From Dioscorea cayenensis subsp. rotundata (lineage: Eukaryota; Streptophyta; Magnoliopsida; Dioscoreales; Dioscoreaceae), in contig NC_052475.1 in assembly GCF_009730915.1 (NCBI RefSeq), positions 22,870,016 through 22,934,015 on the forward strand: a stretch of DNA of 64,000 nucleotides. The letters run 5' to 3'. The position numbers and the translations under genes were made by a program. Position 1 is the first letter of the stretch. Each line of letters begins with the position of its first letter. A model generated the notes under the pieces. It saw nothing but the letters and a program-made list of their open reading frames with translations, was not told the DNA's origin and did no database searches. Positions 35,358 to 57,913 of the stretch are shown here, piece after piece.

Positions 35358-38300
35358 TTATTCTAGCCTTTGCTTCTTCTTCTTGGCCAGATTTTCAAAG
35401 ACTCCTTGTATGTCTGCTGATGTGACTGGTTTAGATGAGTCAAAGGATTCCTGCATGCAGAATACTCAGCAATTAGTCCAATTCATCTCTCTAGATGGCA
35501 TCATTTGTGTGACAAATTAAGTCTATATCCAAGCATGTTGAAGCCTAAAGAAACACACCAATAAACTCTCTCATTCATGGACAACACCCAAAACACAAAC
35601 AAAGGATTCTCTCAGATGTATACAATCTGCCATAAAATCTGGCATAACAAGCATTATCTTGACCAAGAATCTTAAGAAGAATCAGATAAAATACTATTTA
35701 TTTTGATCAAATTGGGTAGGCAAATGCTGGGCAACATGACTGTTTTGACAATTGAATCAAAACAAACAAGTTGTGCAGGTTACACGACACAAGTGCATGT
35801 GGTTATATGGTTAAGATTCTTCATTACAAAGACAGGAAGGGACAATGTACTCTAAGGGCAGCAGACAAAAGAAGAAGAATATCTTCCCATTTCAGAGAAA
35901 AAATGGAAAGCAATTCAGCAACGGTCAAACCTGAAACAAAAGGCATTTGGTTCTTCATCTAACGCTCCCAATTAGGACTAAAGATGGCCCATAAATCAAG
36001 TGCTGCTTGATATTACCATTTTTCTTGTTTGCATCTTAGCTTTGCATTGAGAATATTAGAACTAAATGGTCATAAAATAATGACCACAATCATGATGCTG
36101 ATCATCTAATAATGAAATAGATCCTCCAACTCTCAAGTGGTTTGGAAGGTATTTGCTTGAAGCAGAACAGCCTGTAAAATCATACTGCAAACAGGAAAAA
36201 ATTTGCTAGCTATTTAAATGTGAAATAAGAACATAATTGTTACATCTGGGACCCTCTTCCATCTAAAAGTATGAGGACAGCATCTATGAGTTAACTTGTT
36301 GCCTTTAGTGCCAGAAAACTTACAAAGGCTCCTAAAGAATCAAGCATCTTCGGGGGAACTAATAATAAAGAATCTAAGCATCTTCGGAGAACTAATAACA
36401 AAGATCTCGTAACTTTTCATTATTTTCAATTTTTCAGTGGGAAAAATTAAGCATAGAATGTGACAGCCACCAAGAAATTTTGAATAGTAAAGTCTGTCAC
36501 AAATAGAAAGGCTTTCTACTTTACAAGGTTAAATCATGGAGGTCAATAAATAGCTCTTCCCTACCACTGATTTATGTATGATTTATGTGAACATAAATAA
36601 TACTACCAATGTGTTTTCTATTTGATATAAGTTAATAAGTTTGAGATGTTTTGATATCGCAACATATTCACTGAGGAGAATTTATATGTTTTCACATTGG
36701 ATGTAGGCAGCAATAAACATATCTCCCATCAGGAAAGTATACAGATATTGGGAGGAACCTTCTTTCAGCTCACAGGCAAAGCAAGAGTGGAATATTGAGG
36801 AATAATAACTAATAACTAACTAACATAAACATGTTCTGTCCCTCCAAGATAAAAATACAAAAAAGGTAATACAACAGTCATTTGTTATGCCAATTTACAA
36901 TATGAACGATTTCAACAAACTAACGCATGCTATAGATAATACCTCTGAAAATATGGGAGAAAAGAAAACATAACCAGCATTACTAAGATCAAGAATTTGC
37001 TACTCACAAAAGGGCAGTGTGTTCCTTAGATAGCAATATTTGTTCTGGTAGCAACAATTCACACAGGATTCCCTCCAAATCAAAGAGAAGAATTTGGCAT
37101 GATAAATTGATTATACAGTAGAGAAGAGTCATGTTGAATATTTTATCTTTATAAAGAATTTATGGGTGAAGCACCATTCTGTTTCAATTTTCACAGAATT
37201 ACTTGCAAACAGACAAATTACAAACTTAATGTTGACAAGAAAAAAAGGTTATGTCAACGAAACATAACAAGTCAAACTGGTAAAGAACATGATGACTAAT
37301 TAAAAATAAATTGACAACAAATACATTAGATCTACCCAATTAATAAACAATGAAACAATAATTTTGAAGGATATTAAATTGTTTCAGGATTGTCCTAAGA
37401 AGATTTGAGAAGTGATCCTACAAATATTCTTGAAAACCTAGAAGAAACAGATGATAGAACCTAATTAAATATCAATTAGCTTCAGTTTCATAAATGCAAA
37501 TGCATGCAATATTTAAAAAAGGTCAAACATCCATGATGCCTTGGTTTAAATGCACATGAAGGCAGAAGAAAATAGAGTATATACAAATGAAGGACTCAAC
37601 AGAAAACCATCAAGTTGATGCAAGTATAATAAATATTCATGAAAAAGTATTTGTAAGGAAATAACAATACCAGAGCATACTAACAAAAAATTATATACGC
37701 AAATGATTGCAGAAAATTGAGTTGGTAAATCAAAATCTTTGACCCGAACCAAAACCCCATTAATTGATCATGAGTGGCTAAAAGCCTAAAATGCATGGCA
37801 TATTTAAACAAACGGAAAAGTTAACCATAGGTTTTGACATTGCATGACTCATCAATAATGGTTAATTTATTAACCCAGATTAACATTACTCTATTAAACA
37901 TTTCATAAATAATAATACCAAATATCTTGACTAACAAACTATGACCATGATATGAAGTATAATAGCCCAATACTAAATATCTTAACATAACCATAGGTTT
38001 CAAAAAAGGAACCCAACATATAAAAGTCATGGGACAAAGTAGAAACTCAGTCAATAAAATAACTGTCAAAATAAATTAGGATTGATTTATGAACTCACAT
38101 AGATTGATGACCTCTTTCCATATTAAAACAAATAGCTGATTTCCCTTCCCTACTAGCATTTCAAAAAGAACAATCTATACTGGTACAAACTCCTAACACT
38201 ACAACATGGAGAGGATATTTCCAACCATCTGCCAATACTTCCACTCCAGGAAAGGAATTGTATAATCAGAACTTCGTAGAGGTGGATTTTTTGTAAGTTT

Positions 38301-57000: not shown

Positions 57001-57913
57001 AAAAAAAGTAATGGATATTTTTTAACTAGAAAACGTGGAAAGGTGAAAGAAGATGGAAATTTTCTGACTGAGAATTTGGAAAAAATGAGACAATGCAAAG
57101 GAAAGAATGACTCTGAAGTCTCCTCAGAACAAACTTTATAGACTCTTGCATTAAGACTAGAAAAAACATAGTTTCATGAGTGAATTGAGATAGATGCAAA
57201 CAGTAAAACACTAAAAAAACAAACCAGTTACATATCAAGCAAAGTTATACACGACAAAACATGACCAAAAACCATTAAAGAGATTTTACCTCTTAAGATT
57301 AGTAAGTAGGACATTAATATACATACTAAGTTAAGGCATCAATCAATGAATAAAAGAAATGTCACCTCTCCATAGAGGACATAGGGTTCTGGGTGAGCCT
57401 TAATAAGGTAATCAGTGCCCCATTTGACAGCCTCCATGGCATTCTTAAGCTCTCCACTCCTACTCATTTGCTTCCCATATTCCACAATGCTCCAAGACAT
57501 CATTGTGATTGTGAAAGCCATTGGCAAACCAAATTTCACATTATCCCCAGCATCATAGTACCCACCAACAAGATCCACCTGTTACCATTAAACAAAGAAA
57601 AAAAAATCACATCTTGGTAAACAACCAACAAATTACATGAAGAATAAATACTGAAAAACAGAGAAAAGATGTATCAAAAAGCAAAGATATATATATATAT
57701 ATATATATATATGTAGCCTTGCCATCCAGCAAACCAGAGTCAGCTCTCCAAGTGATTCTCTGGTTCTTTGGAAGGTACCCAGACCTCTGAGCCTCAAAGA
57801 AGAGAATGCTCTTACTAAGAGCCTTCCCATAGTCATGGCCAGCAGCAGCAGCAGCAACAACAAATGGCACAAAGACAAACAACAAGTGAAGAAAGCACAG
57901 CTCCAACACTCAT
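54070..57913 (-). CDS. Class C GH9 endo-beta-1,4-glucanase with CBM49
   Basis: Minus-strand exons: 57913-about 57717, 57578-57366, 56739-56538, 55703-55614, 55537-55373, 55294-55010, 54935-54587, 54483-54442 and 54371-54070, about 610 residues. Signal peptide ([18 protein letters not shown]), then a GH9 domain: [17 protein letters not shown] with catalytic aspartates, VHHRGSS with the active-site His, and [20 protein letters not shown] with the acid Glu. A linker and a C-terminal CBM49 ([25 protein letters not shown]) define class C, secreted cellulases acting on wall glucans. Exon 56739-56538 is 202 bases where 201 fit (CCCC for CCC at 56647-56650). The ATG is out of frame with the signal peptide by one base, and intron 1 lacks a GT donor, ending instead in a TA microsatellite. 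Confidence 0.9.
57690..57713. repeat. TA microsatellite at the first GH9 intron boundary
   Basis: A run of TA dinucleotides directly abuts the end of the first coding exon (after codons for LLDGKA on the minus strand). No GT donor lies between the coding sequence and the run. Repeat-length change or misassembly may have removed it. Confidence 0.8.

Follow-up and report, generated by a model that had tools for sequence, protein, structure and literature searches.

Frame breaks in neighbouring genes right of a scaffold join in the Dioscorea rotundata assembly probably reflect uncorrected small insertions

In the 64,000-base stretch of the Dioscorea rotundata genome analysed here, hereafter called the window (C5:22870016-22934015), all genes of more than 1 kb read to the right of a scaffold join carry frame-breaking insertions or a frame break (4/4). 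With a probability that we put at about nine in ten, these genes are intact in the plant and the breaks are small insertions that remained uncorrected in the assembly right of the join; it is strongly favoured that they constitute an ordinary assembly artefact and no real feature. Such insertions, mostly of one base in a short homopolymer, would have been left behind by consensus calling and incomplete polishing, and short-read correction was most likely not effective enough here, e.g., through poor coverage or poor unique mapping; accurate reads would then be expected to lack the extra bases.

The assembly (GCF_009730915.1) comprises 584,211,761 bases in 2249 contigs and is given as D. rotundata TDr96_F1 in the available text of PMC13128126. 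The join between two contigs or scaffolds at 30501..31500 is the sole run of N in the window and exactly 1000 bases long, and in the TDr96_F1 pseudo-chromosomes scaffolds were by convention joined by exactly 1000 N, as stated in the available part of PMC5604175. According to the available text of PMC9010478, D. rotundata has n = 20 and the version 2 assembly was ordered via a linkage map; the paper on version 2 (PMC7749330) does without the words nanopore, contigs and polish in its main text.

Four genes lie to the left of the join, namely a WRKY gene (2069..3546, minus strand; Pfam WRKY), a SWEET gene (23826..25031, plus strand; Pfam MtN3_slv), a gene for a YrhK-like membrane protein (26467..27572, plus strand; Pfam YrhK) and an alpha/beta hydrolase gene (27834..30330, minus strand; Pfam Abhydrolase_11). 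All of them are without frame break, with one frame per exon over approximately 3.4 kb of coding sequence as estimated by residue count, which confirms what a preliminary description of this DNA had stated for the four genes left of the gap. The window furthermore contains a large element at 7645-21182 with long imperfect terminal inverted repeats, which we label Mutator-like; its arms pair 7669-7745 with 21083-21159 (81%) and 8124-8209 with 20611-20696 (77%), and pieces within 9846-10092 and 15397-15645 form an inner inverted pair. Since old transposons decay, the breaks in this element were left out of the host-gene count. Right of the join two small genes are likewise clean, i.e., a small intact open reading frame at 33951..34244 (minus strand, three-frame reading) and a lipid-transfer protein gene at 47277..47624 (minus strand; Pfam LTP) with an intact frame and an approximate 3' end of its exon.

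The remaining genes to the right of the join are all encoded on the minus strand, where one extra base shifts the codon coordinate down by one modulo 3. Breaks in the UBR7-like, SDE2 and leucine-rich-repeat (LRR) genes were called by visual inspection of the three reading frames, and those in the GH9 endoglucanase gene with a purpose-written splice- and frameshift-aware aligner that was also applied to the ABCB, UGT and KCS genes described below. The UBR7-like gene (35358..42840) has five exons (42760-42840, 42463-42622, 40982-41242, 39683-40721 and 35358-35450) with GT/AG at the internal borders, exon 2 being 160 and exon 4 being 1039 bases long. Pfam detects zf-UBR at 1.4e-12 and PHD at 0.00067, the latter under its cut-off. 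The name UBR7, which we presume to be appropriate for this gene, is taken from the preliminary description, because the closest solved structure matched by a piece of the protein is UBR4 at 1.4e-4. Exon 2 contains one extra base within 42510..42520 (near 42515) at a 3-base C run of the plus strand, and the Pfam match to the UBR box covers both sides of this break. In exon 4 a break of net +1 within 40066..40084 (near 40074) is located inside a 42-base tandem array (39992..40405, minus strand) of 9.8 copies that encodes a 14-residue repeat unit, and when judged by eye this break can alternatively be read as a 4-base excess next to a 3-base deficit. A DNA search of the assembly with 42400-42860 for a second copy of exons 1-2 returned only the query locus itself.

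The SDE2 gene (43546..46235, minus strand) consists of three exons (45614-46235, 45003-45508 and 43546-43707), whose internal borders are again GT/AG; the first exon has 622 and the second 506 bases. It is identified by the Pfam families SDE2 (3.5e-24) and SDE2_2C (1.3e-25), and the solved SDE2 structure 8c6j_z is matched at 9.3e-15, ranking behind polyubiquitins. One extra base is found at each of three sites: in exon 1 within 46171..46177 (near 46174) at a 4-base G run of the plus strand and within 45768..45774 (near 45771) at a 3-base C run of the plus strand, where the Pfam SDE2 match crosses the site, and in exon 2 within 45033..45038 (near 45036) in an AAAGG context, where the SDE2_2C match starts at the break. 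For exons 1-2 of this gene, too, a DNA search of the assembly for a second copy, against which the extra bases could have been compared, recovered the query locus only, with 44990-46260 as query.

The LRR gene (48528..52076, minus strand), assigned by LRR Pfam families and having an approximate 3' limit, was read with a last exon at 48528-49048 of 521 bases, in which the frame breaks within 48771..48778 (near 48775), where the sequence is TATATA, by either +2 or -1. Both this ambiguity and the position of the UBR7 exon 4 break in a tandem array, a setting in which genuine indels occur frequently, leave a limited probability to a mixed case in which the single-copy genes are intact and most breaks are errors, with one or two (LRR, UBR7 array) being real variants. 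We consider this unlikely, given that these two breaks cut frames that are otherwise open and share their contig with the clear errors.

With 7.7e-164 for Pfam Glyco_hydro_9 and with start and stop codons present, the GH9 endoglucanase gene (54070..57913, minus strand) is the one gene of the window for which the break was called by alignment. Its exon 3 (56538-56739) is 202 bases long and contains one extra base within 56644..56652 (near 56648) at a 4-base G run of the plus strand. Its alignment to a profile of 16 other GH9 genes from this genome yields a single +1 at 56646 along with six introns, and no stop in 1387 aligned bases, and the +1 call is unchanged at three frameshift penalties; as the window protein had guided the reading of the 16 proteins, the profile is partly dependent on it. 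At this site no break was called in any of the 17 further GH9 genes that were analysed. Five of the introns have GT/AG borders and one has GC/AG, the GC donor being that of intron 1 (57579-57717) in the best path of the aligner. In the three-frame reading the start codon (ATG, 57911-57913) is displaced from the frame by one base (57880..57913, minus strand). This start shift is soft evidence, given the lack of conservation of signal peptides and the GC donor of intron 1. That the frame is in truth unchanged and wrong splice sites or tiny introns were read instead might be suspected from the fact that the exons were initially called by eye. However, the breaks sit inside exons, the UBR7 and SDE2 borders are GT/AG, and the aligner resolves 56646 as a frame change instead of an intron, GH9 being alone among the window genes in having this test, and a misreading of exon borders is thus hardly credible.

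Beyond the right end of the window, at a distance of approximately 7 to 11 kb, an ABCB gene carries five +1 breaks when compared to human ABCB1 (6qex_A), and no in-frame stop was found in three alignments covering it from reference residue 190 onward. The first 5000 bases of this flank (L064 1-5000, C5:22934016-22939015) read N, starting exactly at the right end of the window, and because of these 5000 N the ABCB gene may lie on another contig than the right half of the window.

Taken together, the window contains seven called breaks, comprising five clear one-base excesses (the codon coordinate falls by one modulo 3 at 42515, 46174, 45771, 45036 and 56648), a net +1 and a change of +2 or -1. 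With the five ABCB breaks included, 11 of the 12 called breaks are +1 or net +1, the remaining one being ambiguous, and all of those judged clear are +1 (10/10, P 0.001 at even odds). With respect to sequence context, a G/C run of at least 3 is present at 4/5 clear window sites, for a chance of approximately 0.10 per 10 coding bases (P 5e-4, an optimistic value since the protein does not fix the exact base); runs of 3 are frequent when all four bases are counted (0.33 in 10 bases), and G/C runs alone are rare (0.10). Pfam matches cross the breaks in the UBR box, SDE2 and GH9, and apart from the frame breaks no stops were seen by eye in UBR7, SDE2 and LRR. Programmed ribosomal frameshifting was rejected on the grounds that the break contexts differ across the seven window sites and that the GH9 break has no counterpart among the called breaks of the 17 other GH9 genes. 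The preliminary description had listed the exon lengths 160, 1039, 622, 506, 202 and 521, all of which were reproduced; its statements that nearly all excesses are of one base, that most breaks sit at short runs and that the conserved protein continues on both sides of each break agree with these counts and with the three-frame reading, the Pfam matches and the GH9 alignment, respectively.

Under neutral decay substitutions far outnumber indels and some of them create stops, and deletions are more frequent than insertions. The single sign of the clear indels and the lack of any stop of their own in the GH9 and ABCB alignments therefore speak against real decay, in which neighbouring genes of a dead block, or of a dead haplotype in a heterozygous individual, would have gained frameshifts, as do the good scores of the Pfam domains (the pieces having been searched together) and the failure of DNA searches to find a second copy of the SDE2 and UBR7 exons used as queries. 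While TDr96_F1 is heterozygous according to the available part of PMC5604175, so that a non-functional haplotype could be the assembled one, decay remains a highly improbable explanation. It is scarcely to be expected, either, that one haplotype truly contains the extra bases, these having arisen by insertion-biased local mutation and persisting thanks to clonal propagation and to a second haplotype that is functional. The preference for assembly error over the joint decay of four adjacent genes, as expressed already in the preliminary description, is thus upheld, because the clear breaks are of one sign and are found at G/C runs beyond chance, because the aligned genes have no stops of their own, because no second copy of the searched SDE2 and UBR7 exons was found, and because ABCB shows +1 breaks only.

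A comparison with known systems points in the same direction. Like unitary pseudogenes, the window genes have frame-breaking indels and no second copy was found; they differ in that those that were aligned are without stops of their own, that their domains are well matched, that the indels have one sign and that several neighbours are affected. In particular, there is no build-up of nonsense codons (0 stops in the GH9 and ABCB alignments, and none by eye in UBR7, SDE2 and LRR), and in place of indels of both signs with an excess of deletions 11/12 are +1 or net +1. Residual indels in long-read assemblies, as described in the available texts on Polypolish (PMC8812927) and Kastor (PMC12007338), resemble the present case in being small, in affecting homopolymers, in breaking conserved genes and in occurring in patches where short-read polishing fails, whereas those cases concern bacterial or small genomes and the yam stretch is biased to extra bases.

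As to the distribution of the breaks along the sequence, all host-gene breaks within the window are located right of the gap, as had been noted before. The breaks are not confined to this contig, however, since a UGT gene past the next 1000-N join (C5:22949757-22950756) is broken as well, and so are 15/41 control genes elsewhere in the assembly. The UGT gene (L065 6742-8100), the best solved matches of which are plant glycosyltransferases, is broken at two or three places, with both signs represented and the number varying with reference and penalty; an open frame of 777 residues (L066 3907-6237) occurs in the same stretch. On the left contig, the 20 kb beyond the window are free of N and contain two UGT genes without break over the full reference stretch, bringing this contig to a total of 0 breaks in approximately 6.3 kb (four window genes and two UGT), as well as a third, degenerate UGT fragment with two plus-sign breaks that was excluded from the gene count. 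In the window alone 4/4 genes are clean on the left vs 2/6 on the right (Fisher P 0.076), and by approximate coding length P is 0.065, which is a weak split that may be due to chance. With the left extension the comparison by gene becomes 6/6 vs 2/6 (P 0.061), and with ABCB also added 6/6 vs 2/7 (P 0.021); the corresponding values by approximate coding length are 0.0115 and 0.003. The uneven split, which had been put forward as an argument for an under-polished contig, therefore holds in its direction but amounts to a P of about 0.07 in the window itself.

For comparison with the rest of the assembly two gene families were used as controls, with 24 KCS gene groups taken from 30 of 40 matches (profile from 12 of these genes) and 17 of 18 GH9 groups taken from 30 of 95 matches, one non-overlapping pair having been dropped. 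Of the KCS groups 16/24 are clean and the other 8 contain 22 breaks, 18/22 of which have plus sign (P 0.002), and one of these genes (L054), with five +1 and no stop, resembles the window genes. Among the GH9 controls 10/17 are clean and 7 genes contain 9 breaks, of which 2/9 are plus; the minus calls include two at an exon joint and three in L020, a gene with two in-frame stops. In total, at least one break was called in 15/41 control genes. HSP70, with three candidate within-gene frame changes by eye (2, 1 and 1 modulo 3) that are possibly short introns, was excluded.

The raw control rate is 31 breaks in 53.1 kb, i.e., 0.58 per kb, and it declines to 0.47 per kb without the two genes having in-frame stops and to 0.32 per kb when L052 and the two joint calls are removed as well. 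Compared to these rates, the 7 breaks in 7.05 kb of the right half yield P values of 0.12, 0.05 and 0.008, respectively. A baseline of 0.25 breaks per kb was discarded as hand-picked and replaced by the raw rate with the two stated exclusions, and the claim of a hot spot is weaker as a consequence of the rise from 0.25 to 0.58 per kb. By gene, 26/41 controls are clean vs 0/4 right-half genes over 1 kb (P 0.026). The right half is the bad end of a wider, patchy problem that reaches past this contig; hence, the earlier proposal of one under-polished contig is upheld in part only. Counted against the reading as assembly error are the weak split in the window, the P of 0.12 at the raw rate, the 2/9 plus calls of the GH9 controls, the mixed signs in UGT, the two plus-sign breaks of the degenerate UGT fragment on the left contig, the two clean small genes right of the join, and a +1 common to two control genes (see below).

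These results amount to a caution and not to a discovery, in that claims of gene loss, pseudogenes or missing families which are based on this assembly need a check against reads. In the available text of PMC9010478, 595 conserved gene families are reported as missing in D. rotundata vs 53 in D. alata, a difference that would fit defects of sequence or annotation in the former. Conversely, some of the broken control genes may be real pseudogenes. The two KCS-like genes L054 (C2:23774497) and L051 (C1469:43712) carry a +1 at an identical position, the context being TGTTTT, which could be either an inherited real frameshift or an error repeated at the same sequence, and some of the control breaks may therefore be inherited pseudogene marks.
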